Source of the DNA: Gammaproteobacteria bacterium
Lineage (GTDB): Bacteria; Pseudomonadota; Gammaproteobacteria; SZUA-140
NCBI GenBank assembly: GCA_015488555.1
Contig: WFNO01000011.1
Location: forward strand, 1-45,881
Direction: 5' to 3'
Length of the DNA: 45,881 bases
The notes below the pieces were generated by a model that saw only the letters and a list, made by a program, of their open reading frames with translations, did not search any database and had not been told where the DNA came from. This document shows positions 7,219 to 38,676 of the stretch, one piece after another (the first letter of the stretch is position 1; every line of letters begins with the position of its first letter). Position numbers and translations under genes: made by a program.

Positions 7219-9147
7219 TCAGGCGCCTTCGCGCGGGGATTGGCTCCAGTTGCGGGGCAGCCGGACCTCGAGGCAGGCGCATTTGCGATAGGCGAGGTAC
7301 AGCCCCCCGCCGAGCAGGAGATTGATGAGGAGCACCTCCAGTGTCACCCACAACCAATTGACATCGCCCGCTGCCGGTGCATCCGCTGCGGCCGCTTCCC
7401 GGGCGTGCTCTTGGGGGGCTTCTTCCCGTACTTCTGTGATGGAGGCCTCTGGCTCTTCGGCCTCTGCCGGGGCGCCATAGGACAGGGGTCCGGCGGAGGC
7501 CGCCAGCGGCCGGCCGTCGGGCCGCAGCCCTTCGATGTGCACCTGGATCTCGTGATGTTGCCGGGGATCGTAGGCGTCCAGCGGCAATTGCCACAGGTTG
7601 TGGTGGGCGCGCGGGACGGCGGCGCTGTGGCGGGCGCCGTCTTCGCTGGTGATGGTGGCCGTGACATGCATGGAATCCGGCTCCACCAGCCCCGCGCGGG
7701 GAATGACCTGCAGGAAGGCATGGCCATCGCGTTCCACCACCAGGGTTTCCACGGGACTGGTGTGCACCTGGAAGTGCTGGCGCAGCTGGCGGTGGAAGGT
7801 GGTACCGTCCACGTCCACCACGAGGGTGTGGCGGCCCGGCTGCAGGGAGTCTTCCAGCACCAGGGTGTAGACACCGTCACCGGGGGCGGCGTCGTGGCGG
7901 CGGCCGTTGTCGAGCAGCAGCCAGTCCCAGTGCCTGCCGCCCGCTTGCTCCTGGCGCACGTTGACCGAGACGAAATGGAGGAATTCCTTTTTCTGGATGA
8001 CCCGCCCCTCGTTGGTGATCTGGACCAGAAAGGTGTAGCGGTCCTCGGGGGACAGATTCTCCGGCAGGCGGGTGGTGATCACCCGCAGATCGCTCACCAC
8101 CAGGACCCGGTTGTCCGGATCCGTGGCCGCCTCGATGCGCCAGGTGCCGGTCATGGGCTCGCGAATGGTGACCAGATCGTAGCGTTCTTCGTGATGCCAG
8201 CGCACGTTGGGAGGCAGGCGCCGGTGATCGAATTGCACCCCGTGGGGGGTGGTGAGGCGGGTGGGCTGGTCTTTTTCCGGGTCGCGGAAGACCAGCAGGG
8301 TCAGTTCCTCGACGCTCTCGTCCACCAGCACCGTGCCCGCCTCCAGGGGCAGGGTCTCGGGCATGGTGCTGGTCTCGAAGAGGCGGAAGAACAGGCGCTC
8401 CAGATCGGTGGCCGTGGCCTTTACGTGGCGGCCGCCGGTGGCGGTGGCTAGTTGCGCCAGCAAGGCGGCGTCGGCGTCTTCCCCGAGGGCGATGGTGTGG
8501 ATCACGACAGCGGCCTTTTGCAGGCGGGGCAGGATCTGGTCGAGGATGCGCCGGCGCGAATCCGCGTTGGCCTCGGGATCTGGCGCCACGTCCACGTAGC
8601 CGTCGGTGAGCAGGATGAGCGTGCGTTGCTGCGGCGCCGCCGGGTCGGGGGGACGCGACCAGTCCCAGGTGGCCTCGGCCAGGGTGGATTCGATGTCGGT
8701 ATAGAGGCCGTGGGCGTGGATCTGGCCGCTGGCCTGCAGGGCCTGGCGGCGCCAATCCTCGTCCACTTCCCCCAGCGGCACCAGCATGTTGACATAGCGC
8801 GCGAAGGTCCACACCCCGGCCCGGCTGCCGCGCGGCAGCAGGCCGGTGATCAGCTTGAGGGCAGGGGCCCGCAGGTTCTGCGGGTCGTTGCGCTTCATGC
8901 TGCCCGACACGTCGATGAGGATGCGGATGTCTTGCCCGGCGGCCTGAGGGGGTGGGGGCGCGGCCGGAGCCGGGGTGCCCGCGGCGGCTCGGGCATCGCT
9001 CCAGGACACTGCGAAGAGGGCGGCGACCGCAAGACCGCACAGGAACAGGCGTGCATCCCGCAGATGCCCGTCCCACCGTCCATCGGGCTGCCCGCCATGG
9101 GGCTGCCCGTAGGCGGCCGTTCGTGTCTGTACGTGGATCATGCGCAT
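7219..9147 (-). CDS. VWA-domain exported membrane protein
   Basis: A 642-residue protein of unknown partner. An N-terminal hydrophobic segment (about 34-48, ending ARA) looks like a signal peptide. A von Willebrand A domain follows, with the metal-ion-dependent adhesion motif DVSGSMKRND from Asp79 and a second site in LILLTDGYVD. The middle is predicted beta-sandwich, with the phrase DAAPGDGVYTLVLED typical of such modules. Near the C-terminus is a membrane helix (WVTLEVLLINLLLGGGLYLAY) and a short basic tail, so the bulk is likely periplasmic. I chose the ATG at 9147 because CTCCCT at 9155-9160 gives a well-spaced AGGGAG ribosome site. It is transcribed toward bioA, divergent from the bactofilin. 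No MoxR ATPase is nearby. Confidence 0.8.
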   Translation of the reverse strand: MRMIHVQTRTAAYGQPHGGQPDGRWDGHLRDARLFLCGLAVAALFAVSWSDARAAAGTPAPAAPPPPQAAGQDIRILIDVSGSMKRNDPQNLRAPALKLITGLLPRGSRAGVWTFARYVNMLVPLGEVDEDWRRQALQASGQIHAHGLYTDIESTLAEATWDWSRPPDPAAPQQRTLILLTDGYVDVAPDPEANADSRRRILDQILPRLQKAAVVIHTIALGEDADAALLAQLATATGGRHVKATATDLERLFFRLFETSTMPETLPLEAGTVLVDESVEELTLLVFRDPEKDQPTRLTTPHGVQFDHRRLPPNVRWHHEERYDLVTIREPMTGTWRIEAATDPDNRVLVVSDLRVITTRLPENLSPEDRYTFLVQITNEGRVIQKKEFLHFVSVNVRQEQAGGRHWDWLLLDNGRRHDAAPGDGVYTLVLEDSLQPGRHTLVVDVDGTTFHRQLRQHFQVHTSPVETLVVERDGHAFLQVIPRAGLVEPDSMHVTATITSEDGARHSAAVPRAHHNLWQLPLDAYDPRQHHEIQVHIEGLRPDGRPLAASAGPLSYGAPAEAEEPEASITEVREEAPQEHAREAAAADAPAAGDVNWLWVTLEVLLINLLLGGGLYLAYRKCACLEVRLPRNWSQSPREGA

Positions 9148-9757: not shown

Positions 9758-10767
9758 CGGTGTCGGCGCAGGCCCAGGTTGAGGATCTTCTGGATCAGGG
9801 CGTCGTAGCTCAGCCCGGCCTTTTCCGCGGAGAAGGCGCTGTCCTCGCTTTCGGCGATGGCGGGGTTGGGATTGGCCTCCAGGACGTAGACCTGCTGCTC
9901 GCCGTCGATGCGCAGGTCGAAGCGGGCGTAGCCGTCCAGATCCAGGATACGATAGGCACGCTTGCACAGTTTGCAGATGCGTTCCGCCATGCCGCGCGGC
10001 AGGTTGTGGGCGAAGCGATAGTCGATGCCCCAGCGCTCGCGATAGTCGTAGTTCCATTTGACCCGGTGGGTGGCCACCCGCAGCGGCCCGTCGTCCCGCC
10101 TGGAGAAGGTGATCTCGCGAAAGGGCAGCACCGTCAGGCGCCGGTTGCCCAGCACGGTGACATAGAGTTCGCGGCCCTCGATGTATTGTTCGGCGATGGC
10201 GTCGCCATGGGTGCGCCGGTGGATGAAGGCGACCCGTTTGCGGAGCTGTTCATCGCTGGTCACCAGCGAGGCCTGGGACAGTCCGGTGGAGCCTTCCTGC
10301 AGCAGCGACTTGACGATCAGAGGATAGCGCCAGCGGCGCCGGGTGTCGATGGCCTTGCCGCGGGGAAAGACGGCGAACTCGGGTACCCGGATGCGATGAT
10401 GCGCCAGCAGGATCTTGGACAGGGCCTTGTCACGGGCCAGGAGCAGCCCCCGCGGATTGCAACCGGTGTAGGGGATGTCCAGCATCTCCAGGTAGCTCAC
10501 CACGTAGTGGTCGAAGGCCGGATTGCCGGCGAATTCCTCCAGGAGATTGAAGACGATGTGGGGCCGCCAGTCCTCGATGGTCTCCCGGATGGGTGCCAGG
10601 TCGTCGTAGGCCCCCACCACCCGCACCTCGTGTCCCAGGCGCAGCAAGGCGTGTTTGACGTCGAATTCCGTCTGGTATTTGGGCATCCTGGGGTCTTCGT
10701 AGTCGTCCAGGTCCTCGGGCGGTACCAGGGTGGCATGGACCAGGAGCATGACGCGCAGTTTTCTCAT
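9748..10767 (-). CDS. D-alanine-D-alanine ligase-like ATP-grasp protein
   Basis: A 339-residue ATP-grasp enzyme related to Ddl/RimK-type ligases. The N-terminal domain contains HIVFNLLEEFAGNPAFDHYV; the central part YTGCNPRGLLLARDKALSK and YPLIVKSLLQEGSTGLSQ corresponds to the substrate and ATP loop; the C-terminal part has DGYARFDLRIDG and VYVLEANPNPAI, which carry the metal-binding residues. True Ddl enzymes share these motifs, but the N-terminus (MLLVHATLVPPEDLDDYEDP) and the lack of cell-wall gene neighbours point to the large uncharacterised ligase group found as isolated genes in proteobacteria. The carboxylate and amine substrates cannot be named. It is convergent with the bactofilin. 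Confidence 0.85.
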   Translation of the reverse strand: MRKLRVMLLVHATLVPPEDLDDYEDPRMPKYQTEFDVKHALLRLGHEVRVVGAYDDLAPIRETIEDWRPHIVFNLLEEFAGNPAFDHYVVSYLEMLDIPYTGCNPRGLLLARDKALSKILLAHHRIRVPEFAVFPRGKAIDTRRRWRYPLIVKSLLQEGSTGLSQASLVTSDEQLRKRVAFIHRRTHGDAIAEQYIEGRELYVTVLGNRRLTVLPFREITFSRRDDGPLRVATHRVKWNYDYRERWGIDYRFAHNLPRGMAERICKLCKRAYRILDLDGYARFDLRIDGEQQVYVLEANPNPAIAESEDSAFSAEKAGLSYDALIQKILNLGLRRHRRR

Positions 10768-10848
10768 GACAACTCGTGCTGTGTGCCCGTGCGGCTGCCA
10801 ATCGGATTCCCGCCGGGTTGTGGCAACCCGCGGCAGGCCGACTCCATT

Positions 10849-10995
10849 CTAGCAGCTGTTGAAATTCGCTCAGACGAGCGCGAGACAAGGCGAAAATGGC
10901 CAAGAAAGCGCAGTTGACACGTAGTCAATGAGCATTTTGAGGCCATTTTCAACACCGTATCGCGCCGCATGAGTAGAATTTCAACAGCTAGCTAG
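10849..10995. mobile_element. MITE-like element with 14-bp perfect inverted ends
   Basis: A 147-base non-coding element lies between the ATP-grasp gene and birA. Perfect inverted repeats agctgttgaaattc (10854-10867) and gaatttcaacagct (10976-10989) mark its ends; allowing one inserted base, the match extends outward by a CTAG. CTAG tetranucleotides at 10849-10852 and 10992-10995 could be a target duplication of the kind made by IS5-group transposases. Inside are secondary palindromes, such as aaaatggcc near 10893 with ggccatttt near 10942, and gttgac/agtcaa. There is no coding frame, so it would depend on a transposase elsewhere. Confidence 0.8.
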
Positions 10996-11056
10996 TGCGC
11001 TACACTGGCAAGACGCACACGAGTGTGCCCCGTTTCCGTGATGAGGGGAGTTTGAC

Positions 11057-12079
11057 ATGAGCCTGCGCCGCGCATTGCTGCACATCCTGAACGATGGAGG
11101 TTTCCACTCGGGAACCCGTCTCGGTGCCGCCCTGGGCGTGAGCCGAGGCGCGGTCTGGAAGCAACTGCAGGCCCTGGCGCAGCGGGGCGTGGAGATCCAT
11201 GCCGTGCGGGGACGGGGTTATCGCCTGGCCCGGCCGCTGGAGTTGCTGGATCGGGAACAGATCCTGGCGGCCCTGCCGGCGGGGAGCCGCCGCTTGCTGG
11301 CGGCCCTGGAGATCCACGAGGAGACCCATTCCACCAACCGCCTGCTGGCCGCGGTGCCGCGCTCGCGGCCCGCTCCTCGCGCCTGTCTCGCCGAATACCA
11401 GTCCGCCGGCCGGGGGCGGCACGGGCGGTCCTGGGTGTCGCCCTATGGGGCCAACCTCTATATGTCTCTCTTGTGGCGTTTCGCCGAAATGCCTTCGTGG
11501 CCGGCGACCTTGGGGTTGGCCGCCGGGGTGGCGGTGATGCGGACCCTGGCCGATCTGGGGTTCGGGCGGCTGGTGCCCGGCCTCGGTCTCAAGTGGCCCA
11601 ATGACGTGCTCTGGGAAGGCGCCAAGTTGGGCGGCGTGCTCGCGGAGTGTTCGGGGGAGGTGGAGGGACGCTGCCAGGCGGTGGTGGGCGTGGGCCTGAA
11701 CGTCCACATGCCGGAGCCGGCCGCGCGCGGGATCGACCAGCGCTGGGCGGATCTGGCGCAGGTCTTCGGCGGGCGGATCTCGCGCAATCGCTGTGCCGCC
11801 CGCCTGCTGCACCATCTGCTGCAGGTGCTGGCCGATTACGAACGTGCGGGTTTCGTCCCTCTCGCCGCCGAATGGCGCCGCTACGATCTGTTGCGCGATC
11901 GCCCGGTGAGGGTGGTGCACGGCGACCGGATCCAGCGCGGCGTCGCCCGGGGCATCGATTCGAGCGGGGCACTGGTGTTGGAGGCGGGCGGCAGGCGCTG
12001 CCTCGTGCATGCGGGGGAAGTAAGCCTGCGCCCCGAGGCCGTGCCCGCCCGGGCTGCGGCGGAGGCGGGCGGCGAGTGA
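11057..12079 (+). CDS. birA: Biotin-protein ligase / biotin operon repressor
   Basis: A 340-residue bifunctional BirA. The N-terminal winged helix (about 1-65, LGVSRGAVWKQLQALAQRG) binds DNA. The central ligase domain carries the biotinyl-AMP loop SAGRGRHGRSWVSP (about 116-129), KWPNDVLW and KLGGVLAE. A C-terminal SH3-like domain follows (RDRPVRVVHGDRIQRGVARGIDSSGALVLE). It activates biotin with ATP, attaches it to the biotin carboxyl carrier protein, and may repress bioA when loaded. The C-terminus has an Ala/Gly-rich extension. A weak GAGGGGAG ribosome site precedes ATG 11057. It begins a three-gene plus-strand operon with coaX and the SPOR gene. Confidence 0.96.
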   Translation: MSLRRALLHILNDGGFHSGTRLGAALGVSRGAVWKQLQALAQRGVEIHAVRGRGYRLARPLELLDREQILAALPAGSRRLLAALEIHEETHSTNRLLAAVPRSRPAPRACLAEYQSAGRGRHGRSWVSPYGANLYMSLLWRFAEMPSWPATLGLAAGVAVMRTLADLGFGRLVPGLGLKWPNDVLWEGAKLGGVLAECSGEVEGRCQAVVGVGLNVHMPEPAARGIDQRWADLAQVFGGRISRNRCAARLLHHLLQVLADYERAGFVPLAAEWRRYDLLRDRPVRVVHGDRIQRGVARGIDSSGALVLEAGGRRCLVHAGEVSLRPEAVPARAAAEAGGE

Positions 12080-12096
12080 GCGGCGGTGGAAGCGGG

Positions 12097-12981
12097 ATGA
12101 ACCAAGTCCCGCGCATCCTGGTGCTGGACGTGGGCAACAGCCGGCTGAAGTGGGCCTGGGGCGGGGGCGGGCGCCTGGAAGCGCGTGGGGAATGCCTGCA
12201 TGGCGAGACGGATGCGGACCCGCGTAAAGGAGCGGCGCAGGCCTGGTTGCGGGCGCCCCCCTGGGGAGGGCGGCGGCCCGCCCGCATCGCCGCGGTGAGC
12301 GTACTGGGAGCGGCCGCGAACCGGGCACTGGCCGAGGTCCTCGAGGCCCATTACCGGGTGCCCGTTCAGCTGTATTCCGCCAGGTCCGAGGGCTGGGGCG
12401 TGCGCAATGCCTATCGCCGGCCGGAACGCCTGGGCGCCGACCGCTGGGCGGCCCTGGTGGCCGCCCGCCGGCGCCGGCCCGGTACGCCGCTCTTCGTCTG
12501 CGACTGCGGCACCGCGGTGACCCTCGATGTCCTGGATGCCCAGGGCCGCCACCTGGGCGGGCTCATCGCGCCGGGGCTGGGGCTCATGCGCCAGGCCCTG
12601 GCCGCCGGAACCGCGGACCTACCCCGGGTCCCCGTTCCCGCAGGGACCGCCGGGGAGGAAGAGGGTGCAGAGCTGCTGGCCTGTGATACCCTGCGGGCCA
12701 TGACTGCGGGTACGCTGGAGGCTCTGGCGGGAACGGTGGAGCGCTGGTGCGCGCTGGCCCGCCAGGTGCTGGTAGCGCGCGGCGGCGGGCGGGAGTCCGC
12801 CACCGGCTTCATCACGGGGGGCGACGCCGCCCTCGTGTTCTCCCGCCTGCGTTCCCGAGCCTCCATGCCACCATCCGTTCAGGAGCCCGGCGCCTCGCCC
12901 GATCAGGCCGGCGAGGCGCTGCAACACGTGCCGGAGCTGGTGCTGGAGGGCGTATTGCACATGACGGAGCAGCCGGCGTGA
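12097..12981 (+). CDS. coaX: Type III pantothenate kinase
   Basis: Phosphorylates pantothenate, the first step of coenzyme A synthesis. The 294-residue ASKHA-fold protein shows the phosphate-1 loop LVLDVGNSRLKWA (about 7-19), the pantothenate/dimer segment RLGADRWAALVAARR, the phosphate-2 segment CDCGTAVTLDVLDAQGRHLGG, and the adenosine loop GFITGGDAALV. Type III kinases are not inhibited by CoA and need a monovalent cation; that is family knowledge. I chose ATG 12097, 17 bases after birA, since upstream codons mirror birA. In gammaproteobacteria birA-coaX pairs are common. It overlaps the following SPOR gene by 4 bases (GTGA). Confidence 0.95.
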   Translation: MNQVPRILVLDVGNSRLKWAWGGGGRLEARGECLHGETDADPRKGAAQAWLRAPPWGGRRPARIAAVSVLGAAANRALAEVLEAHYRVPVQLYSARSEGWGVRNAYRRPERLGADRWAALVAARRRRPGTPLFVCDCGTAVTLDVLDAQGRHLGGLIAPGLGLMRQALAAGTADLPRVPVPAGTAGEEEGAELLACDTLRAMTAGTLEALAGTVERWCALARQVLVARGGGRESATGFITGGDAALVFSRLRSRASMPPSVQEPGASPDQAGEALQHVPELVLEGVLHMTEQPA

Positions 12982-29503: not shown

Positions 29504-30811
29504 TCACGGCACCGCACGTTCTGCGCGTGCCAGCGCCCGGTAGCCGATGTCCTTGCGGTAGAACATGTCCGGCCAGTGGATGCGCGCCGCCCGGCGGTAG
29601 GCCTGCTGCTGGGCCTCGCGCACGCTTTCACCCAGGGCGCACACGCACAGGACGCGGCCGCCGGCGGTGACCACTCGCCCGCCGCGCAGGGCGGTGCCGG
29701 CATGAAAGATCTTCACGCCCTCTTCCTCTGGACCCTCCAGGCCTTCGATCGGGTCCCCCTTGCGGTAGCTGCCGGGATAGCCGCCGGCGGCCAGCACCAC
29801 GCCCAGGGCGCTGCGCGGATCCCAGTCCGCACGGGCTTCGTGCAGGCGGCCTGCCAGCGCCAGGCGGCACAGGTCCGCCAGGTCCGAGCGCAGGCGCATC
29901 ATGATGGGCTGGGTCTCGGGATCGCCGCAGCGGCAGTTGAACTCCAGGACCTTGGGTTCACCCACCGGGGTGATCATGAGGCCGGCATAAAGGAAGCCCG
30001 TGTACGGGTGTCCATCGGTGGCCATGCCGCGCAGCACGGGGTCGATGACCTCCCGCAGGATGCGCTGGTGCAATTCCGGGGTGATCACCGGGGCCGGGGA
30101 ATAGGCGCCCATGCCGCCGGTGTTGGGACCGCGATCACCCTCGTCGCGGGGCTTGTGGTCCTGGGAGGTGGCCAGGGGCAGGGCCTGTGCGCCGTCTGCC
30201 ATGACGATGAAGCTCGCTTCCTCTCCTTCCAGAAATTCCTCCACCACGATACGGTGCCCGGCCTCGCCGAAGGCATTGCCGGCCAGCATGTCGCGCGCGG
30301 CGGCCTCCGCTTCCGCCAGGGTGCGGGCCACCACCACTCCCTTGCCGGCGGCCAGCCCGTCAGCCTTCACCACCAGGGGGGCGCGCCGCTCGCGGATGTA
30401 GGCCAGGGCTTGGTCCAGGTCATGGAAACTGGCGTAGGCCGCGGTGGGGATGCCGTGGCGTTGCATGAAGGACTTGGCGAAGGCCTTGGACCCCTCCAGC
30501 TGGGCCGCGGCGCGGGTGGGTCCGAAGCAGGCCAGGCCCGCCTCGCGAAAGGCATCCACGATACCCGCCACCAGGGGGGCCTCGGGCCCCACGAGGGTGA
30601 GGTCGATGGCCTGGTCCCGGGCGAAGCGGCGCAACGCCTCGATGTCCCCGGCGTCGATGGCGACGTTTTCCATGCCCGGCTCGCGCGCGGTGCCGGCATT
30701 GCCCGGCGCCACGTATACCCGATCCACTTGCGGCGACTGGGCCGCCTTCCAGGCCAGGGCGTGTTCGCGCCCGCCACCGCCCACCACCAATACTTTGAGT
30801 CGTTCGGCCAT
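29504..30811 (-). CDS. purD: Phosphoribosylamine-glycine ligase
   Basis: PurD joins phosphoribosylamine and glycine using ATP in purine synthesis. The 435-residue ATP-grasp enzyme begins LKVLVVGGGGREHALAWKAAQSP, followed by LVGPEAPLVAGIVDAF, the ATP loop VVKADGLAAGKGVVVA, DHKPRDEGDRGPNTGGMGAYSP and the metal-binding segment VLEFNCRCGDPETQP. The ATG at 30811 gives the normal N-terminus; an upstream Met (30862) has no support. Upstream lie a Fur-like motif, a REP palindrome and the divergent giant gene. In E. coli purD sits next to purH; here purH is on the other side of the giant gene, about 6 kb away. Confidence 0.97.
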   Translation of the reverse strand: MAERLKVLVVGGGGREHALAWKAAQSPQVDRVYVAPGNAGTAREPGMENVAIDAGDIEALRRFARDQAIDLTLVGPEAPLVAGIVDAFREAGLACFGPTRAAAQLEGSKAFAKSFMQRHGIPTAAYASFHDLDQALAYIRERRAPLVVKADGLAAGKGVVVARTLAEAEAAARDMLAGNAFGEAGHRIVVEEFLEGEEASFIVMADGAQALPLATSQDHKPRDEGDRGPNTGGMGAYSPAPVITPELHQRILREVIDPVLRGMATDGHPYTGFLYAGLMITPVGEPKVLEFNCRCGDPETQPIMMRLRSDLADLCRLALAGRLHEARADWDPRSALGVVLAAGGYPGSYRKGDPIEGLEGPEEEGVKIFHAGTALRGGRVVTAGGRVLCVCALGESVREAQQQAYRRAARIHWPDMFYRKDIGYRALARAERAVP

Positions 30812-30874
30812 TGCGGTCCCTACTGCGAAAGCGCAAAGATGACAGTCTAGAAGCAAAGCCATGCCGCTGACAAC

Positions 30875-30893: not shown

Positions 30894-30938
30894 GGGGTCG
30901 GTGGCAAACGAGAATCGTTCTCGTTTGTCACCGACCCC
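30894..30938. repeat. REP-type palindrome upstream of the giant gene
   Basis: Arms of 21 bases (30894-30914 and 30918-30938) flank a 3-base loop TCG; one G:T mismatch occurs at the eleventh position. The GGGGTCGGTG base resembles the GGGGTCAG base of the REP near metH, so both may belong to families moved by a REP-associated transposase encoded elsewhere. The right arm overlaps the -35 box of a promoter. Confidence 0.85.
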
Positions 30939-30986: not shown

Positions 30987-33900
30987 ATGTCTTCCTCTTG
31001 CTCCTTGCGCTTCTCCACACGGGTGGCATGGCTCGCGTCCTGCATAGTCCTGCTGGTCTGGTGTGCCCAGGCGCAGGCGGTGCGCACGGCGCTGTGGACG
31101 GCCAACGGTCCCGTGTATGCCAGTGCCGTGTTCGGCACGCACACGGGTGAGGCCACGGGCGGTGGGATCGTCTTCGACGTGGCCACGGTGCTACTGGACC
31201 GGGCCTATCCCCGTATCCAGGGCACGGTGTATGCGGTGGTCTCCGATGGTGCAGGGGGCTGGTTCGTAGGCGGGGAGTTCACCACTGCGGGTGTGGCGCG
31301 CAGCAATCTCCTCCATTTGCGCCCCGACCGCAGCGTGAATGCCTTTTGGGATCCGGCACCGAATGGTCCCGTCTACGCCTTGGCCTTGTCCACTGATGGC
31401 GCCGTGCTCTACGCAGGCGGGGACTTCACCCACGTCGGCGGCGCAGCCCGCGCACGCCTGGCGGCCCTGGATGCGGTTACCGGAGCGCCGCTGGCCTGGA
31501 ATGCCGGTGCCGACGCACCGGTGCGGGCCCTGGTGCTGGCACCGGATGGGGCCACCCTGTACGTGGGCGGGGACTTTGCCAGTGTGGGCGGCGAACCGCG
31601 CCAGGGGCTGGCGGCCGTGGCCACCGGGGACGGCTCGGTACGGGCGGACTGGCAGGCGGATACGAATGGCAGGGTACTGGCTTTGCTGGTGGCGGGAGAC
31701 CAGGTCTATGCCGGCGGGGATTTCACCACTGTGGCGGGGCAGGCCCGCAATCGCCTGGCGGCTCTGGCGCTGGCCGATGGCACGCCGAGCGCCTGGAATC
31801 CGGATGCCGACGCCACGGTGCGGGCGCTGGCCCACGCAGGCGAAGGACTGCTCTACGTAGGCGGGGATTTCACCAGCATCGGTGGCGAGCCCCGCGCGCG
31901 CCTGGCGGCCTTGGATCTCGACGCCATTCATGCGGACCGGGCCACGGCCTGGAATCCCGGTGCCGACGGTCCGGTGCACGCCCTGTGGCTGGACGGTACC
32001 CTGCTCTATGCCGCCGGAGCGTTCACCAGCGCAGGAGGTGCGGTGAGGGCGGGTCTGGTGGTACTGGATACCAATGTCGTTTCCGGCGGAGCCACGGACT
32101 GGGATGCTGGACTCGCGGGTCCTGGCTATGCCCTGGCATTGGCGGACGGGCGCCTGTTCGTGGGGGGGGGCTTCGACGGGGCCACGGACCAGGCCGCGTT
32201 GTATCTCGGCGGGGATTTCGACTACGTGGGGCCGGTCACCGGCCACGGCGTGGTCTTGGCGGCCGATCCGGCACAGCCCGGCGACGACGGCCTGCTGGCC
32301 TTCGAACCGGTGGTGGATGGTCCGATCCATGCCGTGGTGCCTGACGGGTCCGGCGGCTGGTTCATCGGCGGCGAATTTTTCACCGTGGGAGGGGTGGATC
32401 GCAGCCACCTGGCCCACATCCGGGCCGACGGCAGCGTGGATCCCAGCTGGGATCCGTCTCCGAACGCACCGGTGCGCGCCTTGGCCGTGGCAGGCGGCGT
32501 GGTCTACGCCGGCGGCGACTTCACGGCCATGGGCGGCCAGGCCCGCAGCCGTATCGCGGCGCTGGATGCGGCCACGGGTGCGGTGACGGCCTGGAATCCG
32601 GGCGCCGATGCCACGGTGCGCGCCTTGGTCGTGGCGGGCGGCGTGGTCTACGCCGGCGGCGACTTCACGGCCATGGGTGGCCAGGCCCGCAGCCGTATCG
32701 CGGCGCTGGATGCGGCCACGGGTGCGGTGACGGCCTGGAATCCGGGCGCCGATGCCACGGTGCGCAGCTTGCTGGTGGCAGGTGGCGTGGTCTATGCCGG
32801 CGGGGATTTCACGGCCGTGGGCGGCAAGGCGCGCAATCGCATCGCGGCGGTGGATGCGGCCACGGGTGCGGTGACGGCCTGGAATCCGGATGCCGACGGC
32901 CCCGTGTATGCCCTGGTGTTGGGGAGCGACGGCACTACGCTCTATGCCGGCGGGGACTTCACCGCGCTGGCGGGCGGCGCCGTGGCGCGAGCCCGGCTGG
33001 CGGCCCTGGACAGCACTACCAACGTGACTGCGGATATTCCCACCGCCTGGAATCCCGGCGCCGACGGTCCGGTGTACAGCCTGCAGCTCGCAGGCACCAC
33101 CCTGTACACCGGCGGCGATTTCACCACCCTGGGAGGGCTGGTACGTCTGCGTCTGGGGGCCCTGACGGCGGATCCGGCCGATCCGCTGGCCGACGCTCCC
33201 ACCCCCTGGACCCCCCAGGCGGGGGATGCGGTGTATGCCCTGGCGCTGGACGGCACCGCGCTCTATGCCGGCGGTGCCTTCGAGTCGGTGGGGGGCGTTC
33301 GGCGCCTGCGCCTGGCCGCTTTCAGCCTCAACGACGGCGCCGTGCTGGATTGGGATCCGGCGGCGGATGGGCCCGTGTATACGCTCAGCTTCTCCCCCGA
33401 TGGCAATGCCCTGTATGCCGGCGGGGCCTTCACCGCCATCGGCGGGCGCCCGCGCAACCGGGTGGCAGCATTGGATCGCCGCACCGGCGTGGCCAATTTC
33501 TGGAGTCCCAATGCGGACGGTCCCGTCTATGCCCTGGAGCCGGCGCCCGACGGCAGCGTGATCTACGCCGGCGGTGCCTTCGAGGCCATCGGCGGCGAGT
33601 ATCGCCCGCAGCTGGCCGCCCTGCGGCCCAATGGCAGGGCCACGCCCTGGTTTCCGGACCTCGCAGGCTCCAGCGCCGTTCCTGCCACCGCAGGAGCGGT
33701 GTATGCCCTGTGGCTGGAGGACGAGATCCTGTATGCGGGCGGGGATTTCGCCACCGCGGGCGGGACCGCGCACGCCGGTCTGGTGGCCCTGGATGTTACC
33801 AGTGCGACCGCTCTGGACTGGTCTCCCCAGGTGCAAGGCGTGGTCCGGACCCTGTACCTGGACGCTGGCCGCGGGACCCTGTATGCAGGGGGGCTTTTCA

Positions 33901-36900
33901 CGGGCGTCAATGGGGACAGCCGCAACAACGCCGCGGCCGTGGATCTGGAGACGGGACTGGTGACCGCCTGGGATCCCCAGCCGGACGGCCCGGTATGGAG
34001 TCTGGCCCTGGCCCGGGACCGTACGGCGGTGTACGCGGGCGGGGCCTTCGGCACCATCGGCGGCCAGAGCCGGGCGGCACTGGCCGCTCTGGATGTCACC
34101 ACTGGAACCGCCCTCGACGCCTGGTCTCCCGCGGCGGACGACGAGGTGTTCGCCTTGCGGGTGGCCGCCGACGGTCGTTGGGTCTATGCCGCGGGGCGTT
34201 TTGCTCATGTGGGCGAAGAACCGCGTCAAGGGCTGGCCGCGCTGGAGGCGCTGCCCTTGGAGCGTCAGGCGCCGGTCACCACACCGGACCCGCCTGGAGG
34301 GTTCTACAACGGTACCAGCAACCGGCCGGTGGCGCTCGTCTGCGACGACGGCACCGGTGCGGGTTGTGCCGCCACGTATTACACCCTGGATGGTTCCACG
34401 CCCACCTTCCAGTCACCGATCTATCGCCAGCCCATCGAACTGACGGGGGATGCGCAGCTGCGCTTCTTCTCCGTGGATGCCCTGGGCAATACCGAGACCC
34501 CCGGTCGCGCCGATTACGTGCTGGAATTGGGCGCACCGCGCACCACGGCCGATCCCCCTTCGATGGTCTTCAGTTCGCGCCGTCTCGAGGTGACCCTCTC
34601 CTGTCGCGATGCGCAATCGGGCTGTGCCGAGACCTATTATTCCCTGGACGAGGATGCGCCCCCGTCCGCCTTCGCTCGTTACACGGGTCCCATCCGCATC
34701 ACCGGCAATACCGTACTGCGTTTCTACTCGGTGGATGGGGCCGGCAATCGGGAGGTGGTGCGGCGCGAAGACTATGTGAGCAATTACGGCGGTCCCGGCG
34801 CCGTCCATCCTGCCGCTCTCCCTGGGCTGCTGCTGTGGTGGGTCGCCGTCCGCTTGCGGCGGGTAAGACAGCACAGGGGCAGGAGCCCCCACACCCGGAT
34901 CTCCTCCACTGTCCGCTATGCGCTGGCCTTCCTGTTGGCCGGAGGCGGTTTGCTTGCGGCCAGTCAGCCGCTGCGGGCGGCCAGTCAACCCGAGACTTTC
35001 GCCGACGCCAACGGTGCGGTGTACGCCTTGGCCTTGAGCCAGAACGTGCTCTACGTGGGTGGTAATTTCACCGCCCTGTTCGATCCCGCACAAGTGGAAC
35101 GTTTGGGGCTCGCGGCCATCGATCTGGACACCGGCGAGGTGAGGGCCTGGCGGGCAGACGTGGCGGGCACCGTCCACGCCCTGGCCCTGTCCGCCGACGG
35201 CCGCACCCTCTACGTGGGCGGGGATTTCACCCACATCGGCGGCGTGGCCCGCAATCACCTGGCAGCCCTGGACACCACGCTCGAGACCGAGAACGTGCTG
35301 GACTGGAATCCGGATCCCGATGCGCCGGTACGAGCGCTGGCCCTGTCCGAGGACGGATTGGTGCTCTATGCCGGCGGCGACTTCACCGTCTGGAATGCGG
35401 GCGGCGATGCCGTGAGCCGTCCTTATCTGGCGGCCCTGGACAGTTTCTCGGGTACGCTCCTGCCCTGGGACCCGCGACCCGATGCCGCGGTGGAGGTGCT
35501 GCAATTGGAACATGGCGAGCGCCTGTACGCGGGGGGGCGTTTTCTCAACATCGGCGGGGCCTACCGGCCCTATCTGGCCCGCCTCCATCTCGGCAGCGGA
35601 CAGGCCGACGACTGGCAGCCGGCGCCGGACGGGCCGGTGTATGCCCTGGTGTTGGCGGACGGCGGGCGCCTGCTCTACGCCGGCGGGGATTTCACCGCCG
35701 TGGACGGTGGTGCGCCGGGCAGCCGCAATCGGGCCGCGGCCCTGGATACCACGGTGACGGCCGCGGGCAGTATCGCCACCGCCTGGAATCCGGATTTCGA
35801 TGCCGCCGTGCGCGCCCTGGCCCTGTCCGGAGACGAATCCCTGGTCTATGCCGGGGGCGATTTCACCCTGGTGGGCGGCACGGCCCGCAATCGGCTGGCG
35901 GCCGTCACGGCCGCCCCGGCGGGCGGCGCGGTGAGCGTCTGGGATCCTGGTGCCGACCAGCCGGTGCGGGTGCTGGCCACCGATGCCGGGGGCACTCGAC
36001 TCTACGCGGGCGGAGATTTCACCGACATCGCCGCGGATCCCGCCACTCCCGCACCCACTGGATTGGCACGCTTTCCCATCGCTCCGCCTATGACCACCGC
36101 CAGCCCCCCCGGCGGCGGGTATCCGACACCGCAGGAGGTCACCCTGACCTGCCTGGACCACGATGGCAACGCCTGCAGTGCAGTCTATCTGACGGCGGAC
36201 GGTAGCGAGCCGCAGCCGGTGCCCGCGGATCTCTACGACGGTTCACCCATCGCTATCACGGCCAACACCACTTTGAAGTTCTTCGGCGTGGACGCCGAGG
36301 GCAACGTGGAGGCATTGCGCGCGGAAGACTATTACATCGACGACACCGCGCCGCAGGTGGAGGCCTCACTGCCTTCCGGTCTCTACGGCGCCGCGGCACT
36401 TGCGCCGGTGGAACTGCGCTGCGACGACGGGGCGCAAGGCTCGGGTTGTGCCGCCATTCGTTATACCCTCGATGGCAGTGATCCCGATGGCAGTGCACTG
36501 CTCTACGTCTCCCCCCTGCCGCTGGACAACCTGGTGACGGGCGGGATGGGCCGGCTGGTGCTGCGCTTCACGGCCTTCGATCGGGCGGGCAATCAGAGCG
36601 CAGTGCAGGAGCGCATCTACGACGTGGACACCGTGCCGCCGCTGGTGGTGGCCTCCCTGCCCAGCGGGACCTATACCGGACCACAGGTGGTGGAATTGAT
36701 TTGTGACGACGGCCCCGGCAGCGGCTGTGCGGACATGTATTACACCACCGACAACTCGCCGCCCTCCGACGGTATGGTCTTGGACAGCGACGGCAACCCC
36801 ATTCCGCCCTCGCCCCGTTACACCGGGCCCTTGCAACTGGAGCGCGCCACCATGCTCAACGTGCTGGTGCGGGACCAGGCCGGCAACGAGGACACCCTGC

Positions 36901-37046
36901 TGGTGGGAATCTACGCCTTCACCCATCCCCGTGACAGCGACAATACGGTGGGAGCGTTGCAACCCTGGGCCGTATTGCTACTGGGCATGTGGGCGCTGCT
37001 ACGGGGGTGGCTCCGGCGGCGCTCTACCGGGATGGGGCCAGATTGA
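30987..37046 (+). CDS. Giant exported double beta-propeller protein, probable two-gene fusion
   Basis: A 2019-residue surface protein of unknown function. A signal peptide (to AQA, about residue 31) precedes about 21 units of a 40-60 residue repeat whose core reads VYAGGDFTxxGG..R..LAALD..TG...WNP, the pattern of delta-60/DUF5122 beta-propeller repeats. Two chitobiase/beta-hexosaminidase C-terminal-like modules (about 1094-1265) each contain a Cys pair. Then come GGPGAVHPA (1268-1276), a membrane helix and an Arg-rich run, which looks like a C-terminal sorting signal. A second signal-peptide-like stretch (1309-1333), about seven more propeller units, and three more modules follow, with a second terminal signal (VGALQPWAVLLLGMWALL plus RRR). 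A TTG at 30960 could extend the start. Export and anchoring are inferred. Confidence 0.85.
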   Translation: MSSSCSLRFSTRVAWLASCIVLLVWCAQAQAVRTALWTANGPVYASAVFGTHTGEATGGGIVFDVATVLLDRAYPRIQGTVYAVVSDGAGGWFVGGEFTTAGVARSNLLHLRPDRSVNAFWDPAPNGPVYALALSTDGAVLYAGGDFTHVGGAARARLAALDAVTGAPLAWNAGADAPVRALVLAPDGATLYVGGDFASVGGEPRQGLAAVATGDGSVRADWQADTNGRVLALLVAGDQVYAGGDFTTVAGQARNRLAALALADGTPSAWNPDADATVRALAHAGEGLLYVGGDFTSIGGEPRARLAALDLDAIHADRATAWNPGADGPVHALWLDGTLLYAAGAFTSAGGAVRAGLVVLDTNVVSGGATDWDAGLAGPGYALALADGRLFVGGGFDGATDQAALYLGGDFDYVGPVTGHGVVLAADPAQPGDDGLLAFEPVVDGPIHAVVPDGSGGWFIGGEFFTVGGVDRSHLAHIRADGSVDPSWDPSPNAPVRALAVAGGVVYAGGDFTAMGGQARSRIAALDAATGAVTAWNPGADATVRALVVAGGVVYAGGDFTAMGGQARSRIAALDAATGAVTAWNPGADATVRSLLVAGGVVYAGGDFTAVGGKARNRIAAVDAATGAVTAWNPDADGPVYALVLGSDGTTLYAGGDFTALAGGAVARARLAALDSTTNVTADIPTAWNPGADGPVYSLQLAGTTLYTGGDFTTLGGLVRLRLGALTADPADPLADAPTPWTPQAGDAVYALALDGTALYAGGAFESVGGVRRLRLAAFSLNDGAVLDWDPAADGPVYTLSFSPDGNALYAGGAFTAIGGRPRNRVAALDRRTGVANFWSPNADGPVYALEPAPDGSVIYAGGAFEAIGGEYRPQLAALRPNGRATPWFPDLAGSSAVPATAGAVYALWLEDEILYAGGDFATAGGTAHAGLVALDVTSATALDWSPQVQGVVRTLYLDAGRGTLYAGGLFTGVNGDSRNNAAAVDLETGLVTAWDPQPDGPVWSLALARDRTAVYAGGAFGTIGGQSRAALAALDVTTGTALDAWSPAADDEVFALRVAADGRWVYAAGRFAHVGEEPRQGLAALEALPLERQAPVTTPDPPGGFYNGTSNRPVALVCDDGTGAGCAATYYTLDGSTPTFQSPIYRQPIELTGDAQLRFFSVDALGNTETPGRADYVLELGAPRTTADPPSMVFSSRRLEVTLSCRDAQSGCAETYYSLDEDAPPSAFARYTGPIRITGNTVLRFYSVDGAGNREVVRREDYVSNYGGPGAVHPAALPGLLLWWVAVRLRRVRQHRGRSPHTRISSTVRYALAFLLAGGGLLAASQPLRAASQPETFADANGAVYALALSQNVLYVGGNFTALFDPAQVERLGLAAIDLDTGEVRAWRADVAGTVHALALSADGRTLYVGGDFTHIGGVARNHLAALDTTLETENVLDWNPDPDAPVRALALSEDGLVLYAGGDFTVWNAGGDAVSRPYLAALDSFSGTLLPWDPRPDAAVEVLQLEHGERLYAGGRFLNIGGAYRPYLARLHLGSGQADDWQPAPDGPVYALVLADGGRLLYAGGDFTAVDGGAPGSRNRAAALDTTVTAAGSIATAWNPDFDAAVRALALSGDESLVYAGGDFTLVGGTARNRLAAVTAAPAGGAVSVWDPGADQPVRVLATDAGGTRLYAGGDFTDIAADPATPAPTGLARFPIAPPMTTASPPGGGYPTPQEVTLTCLDHDGNACSAVYLTADGSEPQPVPADLYDGSPIAITANTTLKFFGVDAEGNVEALRAEDYYIDDTAPQVEASLPSGLYGAAALAPVELRCDDGAQGSGCAAIRYTLDGSDPDGSALLYVSPLPLDNLVTGGMGRLVLRFTAFDRAGNQSAVQERIYDVDTVPPLVVASLPSGTYTGPQVVELICDDGPGSGCADMYYTTDNSPPSDGMVLDSDGNPIPPSPRYTGPLQLERATMLNVLVRDQAGNEDTLLVGIYAFTHPRDSDNTVGALQPWAVLLLGMWALLRGWLRRRSTGMGPD
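32501..32932. repeat. Three tandem 144-base propeller repeats, two nearly identical
   Basis: The segment starting ggtctacgcc recurs with exact 144-base spacing at 32501, 32645 and 32789. The first two copies are almost identical and the third has diverged at scattered positions. Each encodes one 48-residue unit containing AGGDFTA and GAVTAWNP. Recent unit duplication is the simplest explanation. Confidence 0.9.
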
Positions 37047-37089: not shown

Positions 37090-38676
37090 TCAGTGGCGGA
37101 AGTGGCGCATGGCGGTGAACACCATGGCCATGCCGTGTTCGTCGGCGGCGGCGATGACTTCCTCGTCGCGCACGGAACCACCGGGCTGGATGACCGCGGT
37201 CACGCCGGCCTCGGCGGCACGGTCCAGCCCGTCGCGGAAGGGGAAGAAGGCATCGGAGGCCATCACCGAACCCGCCACTTCCAGTCCGGCCTCGGCCGCT
37301 TTCCAGGCGGCGATGCGAGCGCTGTCCACACGGCTCATCTGACCGGCCCCCACGCCGATGGTCATGCCCTCGCGGCAATAGACGATGGCGTTGGATTTGA
37401 CGTACTTGGCCACTTTCCAGGCGAACAGCAGGTCTTCCAGTTCCTGCGCCGTGGGGGCGCGTTGCGAGACCACCTGGAGTTCGCTGCTGGTGACCATGCC
37501 GGCGTCCCGGTCCTGCACCAGCAGGCCGCCCGTGAGCCGCTTGTAGTCCAACCCTCCTGCGGTGGGCCGCCGCCAGCTGCCGCACAGCAACAGGCGCACG
37601 TTGGGCTTGGCCGCCAGCAGTTCGCGGGCGGCGGCCTCGGCGTCGGGGGCGATGATCACCTCGACGAACTGCTGGTCGAGGATGGCGCGGGTGGTGGCGC
37701 CGTCCAGGGTCTGATTGAAGGCAATGATGCCGCCGAAGGCCGAGGTGGGGTCGCACCGGTGGGCCCGGCGATAGGCCTGCTCCAGGGTGTCACCCAGGGC
37801 TGCGCCGCAGGGATTGGCGTGTTTGACGATGACGCAGGCGGGCCGCTCCGAGAATTGCTTGACACATTCCAGGGCCGCGTCGGCATCGGCGATGTTGTTG
37901 AAGGACAGGGCCTTGCCCTGGACCTGGCGGGCAGTGGCGATGCAGGCTGCGGGGGGCGTGTGCTCGCGGTAGAAGGCCGCGCGCTGGTGGGGATTCTCGC
38001 CATAGCGCAGATCCATGACCTTGAGATATTGCCGGTTGTGGGTGCGGGGGAAATCCAGCCGCTTGCAGCCGGCCTGCAGGCGGCCCAGGTAATCGGCGAT
38101 GGCGTCGTCGTAGCGGGCCGTGTGTTCGAAGGCCTTGACCGCCAACTCGAAACGGGTGGCGTCGCTCAGGGTGCATTCGTGGGCCCGCATCTCCTCCAGC
38201 ACCCGATCGTAGTCGGCGCTGTCCACCACCACGGCCACGGCGGCATGATTCTTGGCCGCCGCCCGCAGCAGGGTGGGGCCGCCGATGTCGATGTTCTCGA
38301 TGGCGGTCTCCAGATCGCAACGGGGATCGGCCACGGTGCGCTCGAAGGGATAGAGGTTCACCGCCACCAGGTCGATGGGCCCGATGCCGTGGGCCGCCAT
38401 CTCGGCGTCGTCCACGCCCCGGCGTCCCAGGATCCCGCCGTGGATCTTGGGGTGCAGGGTCTTGACCCGGCCCGCCATCAGTTCCGGAAAGCCGGTGTAG
38501 TCGGAGACGTCCACCACCGCCACGCCCGCCTCCCGCAGCAGGCGGGCGGTGCCGCCGGTGGAGAGGATCTCCACGCCCAACTGCGCCAGGCCGCGGGCGA
38601 AATCCACGATCCCGGTCTTGTCCGAGACACTGATCAGGGCCCGCGCGATGGCGTTCGTTTCGTGCGCCCCCCTCAT
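37090..38676 (-). CDS. purH: Bifunctional AICAR transformylase / IMP cyclohydrolase
   Basis: Carries out the last two steps of IMP synthesis. The 528-residue protein has the N-terminal cyclohydrolase (MGS-like) domain (about 1-150, [42 protein letters not shown]) and the C-terminal transformylase domain (about 200-528) with [12 protein letters not shown], the catalytic KHANPCGAA and [18 protein letters not shown] near the end. It is the last gene of the SDR-prmA-DUF3426-dusB-fis-purH minus-strand cluster, 43 bases after fis. This downstream position is usual in gammaproteobacteria. It is convergent with the giant gene. Confidence 0.97.

Follow-up and report, generated by a model that had tools for sequence, protein, structure and literature searches.

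A probable fusion of two paralogous secreted propeller proteins across an internal sorting tail and signal peptide in a gammaproteobacterial genome

The window (the whole 45,881-nt stretch of DNA that was analyzed) carries, between purD and purH, a giant gene read as a single plus-strand frame with no internal stop; it opens at ATG 30987 and closes with the stop codon 37044-37046 (Table 1). Each half of its product runs from a propeller through Cys-pair modules to a tail composed of a Gly motif, a hydrophobic helix and basic residues. Pfam matches above the gathering score were obtained in both halves (PF13290, 1.7e-56; PF17164, 9.5e-24; PF12768, 1.3e-23). CHB_HEX_C_1 (chitobiase-C-like Cys modules) was detected by Pfam in five stretches, and by alignment the first half has two Cys modules, the second half three. 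Pfam and alignment therefore bear out the common order of propeller and Cys-pair modules claimed in a preliminary description of this DNA, and the two halves align with each other as paralogues (36% over 673 aa, E 4e-64). Within the first propeller, 144-nt repeats at 32447-32931 are nearly identical as DNA (90% between neighbors); they are likely a recent duplication, and such repeats are a risk for short-read assembly. Upstream, between purD and the fused gene, a near-perfect palindrome, GGGTCGGTGGCAAACGAGAATCGTTCTCGTTTGTCACCGACCC, occupies 30894-30938, right before a TATAAT box. Its pattern has eight matches, several as palindromic pairs, on four contigs of the genome, while the control gave 0.

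Table 1. Features of the fused gene and its neighbors (positions in the window)
Feature	Position	Strand	Length or evidence
Fused open reading frame	30987..37046	+	2019 aa
First-half N-terminal signal peptide MSSSCSLRFSTRVAWLASCIVLLVWCAQAQA	30987..31079	+	Sequence; hydrophobic residues 11-29
First-half propeller region, DUF5122/Rax2-like repeats	31098..34272 (limits approximate)	+	Pfam; DNA repeats
First-half Cys-pair CHB_HEX_C_1/OmpL47-type modules (n=2)	34290..34760 (limits approximate)	+	Pfam, alignment
Internal GlyGly-CTERM-like sorting tail SNYGGPGAVHPAALPGLLLWWVAVRLRR	34779..34862	+	Alignment to sister-genome gene A C-terminus; profile match
Basic linker	34863..34916	+	Codon usage at low edge of coding
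Out-of-frame (+1) TAA, possible relic of gene A stop	34864..34866	+	
Out-of-frame (+1) ATG, possible relic of gene B start	34918..34920	+	Sole ATG in 34861-34990
Internal signal-peptide-like segment YALAFLLAGGGLLAASQPLRA	34917..34979	+	Alignment with gene B N-termini of relatives
Second half: one propeller, three Cys-pair modules, disordered linker, terminal helix	34980..37043	+	AlphaFold2, PDB matches
Second-half C-terminal sorting tail TVGALQPWAVLLLGMWALLRGWLRRR	~36939..37022	+	Profile; helix in AlphaFold2 model
purD, divergent upstream neighbor	29504..30862	-	Pfam GARS
purH, convergent downstream neighbor	37090..38676	-	Pfam AICARFT_IMPCHas

In a structure model of the second half (AlphaFold2, pLDDT 86), a propeller is followed by three Ig-like modules, and a disordered linker leads to a single terminal helix; the best PDB matches were WD40-type propellers. 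A helix was modeled at both tails of the fused frame. In the model of the junction, confidence is low across the hairpin and the first helix alone appears.

The resemblance of an internal glycine-type tail to the C-terminal one, reported in the preliminary description, was confirmed, as both tails are present (SNYGGPGAVHPAALPGLLLWWVAVRLRR and TVGALQPWAVLLLGMWALLRGWLRRR). The signal-peptide-like stretch said to follow 15 to 40 residues later was also found: a second hydrophobic stretch, YALAFLLAGGGLLAAS (residues 1311-1326), begins approximately 22 residues past the helix of the internal tail, and the segment containing it is likely cut after LRA, a site chosen by inspection. As had been noted, a TAA directly after the Arg run lies one base out of frame. 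The ATG at 34918, which that description did not mention, shares its +1 frame. The chance that both codons are coincidental is estimated at a few per cent. The same description proposed a one-base indel near 34855-34864 as the cause of the joining. Such an indel would stop the first gene, yet leave the second without a usable start, and a single indel was therefore rejected: the second signal peptide, read in the fused frame, contains neither ATG nor GTG, and the sole candidate, TTG 34935, falls within the hydrophobic core. Because TAA 34864 and ATG 34918 are both out of frame, any account by indels only needs two compensating changes of opposite sign.

The 18 codons of the linker score -0.26 bits/codon; in-frame windows score 0.29 ± 0.24 and off-frame ones about -0.6. 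The linker thus resembles DNA that was once intergenic, or coding sequence of recent origin, and a poorly coding linker is predicted alike by a real recent fusion and by a double artifact. A search of ~530 kb of the genome plus the window for the linker as a mobile or repeated element gave matches no longer than the 14- to 17-nt chance level. A structured RNA or frameshift signal in the linker was rejected on a fold z-score of +0.9.

Twenty genomes of the family of the window were available for comparison, and an order-level search returned the identical set. Besides the window, every family genome that covers the junction (13 of 13) carries two open reading frames in different frames, and none is fused. 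The stop of the first gene and the start of the second overlap by 1, 4 or 14 nt in 12 of these relatives and are separated by an 11-nt gap in the other; tails and signal peptides are conserved in all 13. In the sister genome (G001), gene A ends in SNYGGPGTVHPLLLGGLVLLGLARRRRR up to its stop, with which the internal tail of the window aligns beyond doubt, and gene B begins with MMRRLVFCLLLMIAAVRVDAAA. The earlier proposal, an in-frame joining of two paralogous secreted proteins that once stood in tandem, holds, because the relatives are split and the internal tail matches the C-terminus of gene A. Searches of genome contigs with the junction peptide gave no match, and those with the second half found no second genome of the same species.

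Frame breaks in the assembly were surveyed over ~230 orthologues, 230 kb in total, compared against the sister genome. Isolated frameshifts numbered 0, which places the upper bound at ~1 per 80 kb, and the sole real frame breaks were in a degenerate P-type ATPase gene and the aroA-cmk pair. The ATPase gene (L126:9640-11377, contig C34 of the window's genome, G000) lacks ~290 codons and contains two one-base gaps when compared with the sister genome, and is most simply a pseudogene. aroA and cmk form one 711-aa frame in the sister genome (L103, minus strand, 10208-12340, G001) and two frames in the window's genome (L063:10597-12622, G000). Seven of the nine automatic frameshift candidates were extensions into neighboring genes or antisense extensions. 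With isolated indels this rare in the assembly, it would take a large coincidence to place two of them within 60 nt.

Three more junctions at which a sorting tail is followed in frame by a signal peptide were found in the family, in draft metagenome-assembled genomes and with a tail profile derived from the family itself. One, elsewhere in the window's genome (G000:C71, L276:3-3635), has the tail SIAGGTGATGPLGLGMIALLGFWYRRR and then, in frame, SAMRGDT-MNAKKKCALSVVMAGILAGSAQA-AEIG inside one 1211-aa frame; its internal signal peptide is of textbook type, with its own ATG and an upstream AGGAG. The end of another contig, C2 (L054:13558-15432, G000), shares 147 nt with C71 and holds the N-terminal part. 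In the sister genome (G001:C102, L294:6618-11936), the same two proteins stand in reverse order in one 1773-aa frame, joined as ETGGIGASSSILDMISVMLMTLIIMVRRRR-GIKS-MPELRSFRMIFCGVLMTGMVLPEAQA-SND. The third junction, from a third genus (G002:C72, L311), lies in an 1861-aa frame in which a choice-of-anchor-U domain (above cut-off) is followed by the tail RSGSGALSPWWLMLLALLVLRRA (7248-7316, minus strand), a signal peptide that lacks an ATG, and an OmpA-like barrel. Choice-of-anchor domains (NCBIfam) typically stand ahead of sorting tails, and the domain in this position therefore argues that the internal tail is a real sorting signal. Two of the three have an intact ATG and no sign of a disturbed frame, and the remaining one shows no relics of the TAA/ATG type. 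All four junctions have short linkers with a net positive charge (+4 to +8), which fits the expectation for a cytoplasmic loop.

The tail profile was built from 22 family sequences. Its best two matches in the 2.35-Mb genome are the tails of the window, with E values (2.8e-7 and 2.7e-6) that show only that they stand out, as the profile contains both. Across 21 genomes, 34 tails were found at E ≤ 0.02: 27 at protein ends, 4 internal and 3 of unassigned position (G004:C156, G001:C56 and G003:C13). The ratio of 4 in 34 is descriptive, given the family-derived profile and two cases of the same protein pair that are perhaps not independent. The match at G004:C156:3668-3751 (E 6.9e-4) falls within an open frame of 1653 aa. 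When 55 genomes were searched with a composite profile of the joint, the four junctions stood far above all else, although the profile was trained on these four; weaker matches were partial or contained stops. Among 116 propeller frames at other loci, a search for internal tails yielded three formal matches and no real joint, the matches being propeller strands or Thr/Pro stretches.

The machinery expected for such tails is present. All 14 family genomes scanned have a rhombosortase match that exceeds the cut-off, among them that of the window (TIGR03902, 159 bits, G000:C88; cut-off, 84), in which the type II secretion secretin GspD is likewise above cut-off. No match above the cut-off of the GlyGly-CTERM model TIGR03501 (15.5 bits) was found in the window's genome, where the tails of the window were unlisted, and the tail of G002:C72 reached 14.3 bits, below that cut-off. 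Because their scores lie below the curated cut-off, the tails of the window are named GlyGly-CTERM-like. Both have the tripartite structure of a Gly-containing motif, a transmembrane helix and basic residues; the second occupies the extreme C-terminus and the internal one does not. In Vibrio cholerae, rhombosortase cleaves VesB at Gly-Gly and exposes the second Gly, to which a glycerophosphoethanolamine-containing moiety is then attached as an anchor (PMC6219818), and the GlyGly-CTERM tail acts as an independent targeting motif (PMC13393428).

The gene is probably a real, lineage-specific fusion from whose product rhombosortase and signal peptidase would release two surface proteins. One polypeptide would carry two export units: the first signal peptide would start export of the first half, the sorting tail of that half would stop transfer and leave its Arg-rich end in the cytoplasm, and the internal signal peptide would restart export with the second half. 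If the basic end of the tail is cytoplasmic, the directly following signal peptide is rightly placed and oriented for a second export. Rhombosortase would cleave both tails at their Gly motifs, and signal peptidase would cut where the internal signal peptide ends, to yield two mature surface proteins much like the products of the separate genes of relatives. This reading is supported by the order of the elements, the 13 of 13 split relatives, the presence of rhombosortase and the secretin, and the three further junctions; the correctness of the DNA at the junction, the membrane topology and both cleavages are what we infer. It is opposed by a TAA and an ATG at the positions expected for a stop and a start, which fits a recent or artifactual double frame change well, and by the linker, which scores poorly as coding sequence. 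Reports that GlyGly-CTERM tails are found at the extreme C-terminus (PMC3237569), the suggestion that rare internal PEP-CTERM tails are non-functional (PMC1569441) and the score below cut-off also count against it.

The split relatives, the shared +1 frame of TAA and ATG and the poorly coding linker would all be explained if two real genes had been joined by two compensating one-base errors in assembly or sequencing, one before TAA 34864 and one after ATG 34918; the signal peptide of the second gene would then have the same length as that of the sister genome. An artifact of this kind is nevertheless unlikely, judging from the assembly comparison: it requires two opposite errors within ~60 nt, where the orthologue survey contained no isolated frameshift, and the other junctions lack such relics or are clearly intact. 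The same other junctions greatly strengthen the real fusion that the preliminary description offered as its alternative, together with an internal membrane hairpin, of which the topology is our inference. That the fusion product stays uncut, as one giant protein held by this hairpin, is somewhat less probable still. The frame is open throughout, and the internal hydrophobic stretch is short (~13 residues), so that its cleavage is uncertain; against this, neither cleavage signal is missing or out of order, and both align with the functional positions of relatives, in a genome that has a rhombosortase.

Least probable, and by our estimate improbable indeed, is a decaying pseudogene pair, in which real frame changes at an accessory locus under weak selection have left the second half no longer exported. 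Two relic-like codons, a second half without a good start and the degenerate ATPase gene in the same genome would agree with decay. Such decay is hard to reconcile with ~6 kb free of stops and frameshifts, with Cys pairs, propeller repeats and tails kept in both halves, and with a second half that is 57% identical to the sister genome along its length. A broader proposal, that a rhombosortase tail, a short basic loop and a signal peptide form a recurrent processing joint for fixed 1:1 polyproteins in the family, is tentative, and we would sooner doubt than accept it.

C-terminal sorting tails are usually viewed as protein ends, and those met inside a protein as probable errors. That tails can be internal joints is suggested by four in-frame junctions from three genomes, among them one protein pair whose order is reversed between two species. 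If so, a strategy of exported polyproteins would be added to rhombosortase systems, the need of rhombosortase for a free C-terminus could be tested, and annotators would be cautioned against splitting or dismissing such genes.

In bacteria, a polyprotein of this general kind is fbcH of Bradyrhizobium, which encodes cytochromes b and c1 and is cut at an internal signal peptide. The gene in the window likewise has a continuous frame spanning two export units, with an internal signal peptide behind a membrane segment, and two predicted mature proteins. Unlike in fbcH, the upstream membrane segment would itself be a sorting signal, removed by rhombosortase. The two genes of relatives, with their 4-nt stop/start overlaps, resemble the described class of translationally coupled overlapping gene pairs (PMC3711429), whereas in the window the frame is continuous, the linker is ~54 nt and the second gene has no in-frame ATG. 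With GlyGly-CTERM/rhombosortase substrates such as VesB of V. cholerae (PMC3237569, PMC6219818, PMC13393428), the fused protein shares an N-terminal signal peptide and a tripartite tail, and its genome shares rhombosortase and a type II secretin. It differs from these substrates in tails that score below the curated model and in having an internal tail that is followed in frame by a signal peptide and a second exported protein.
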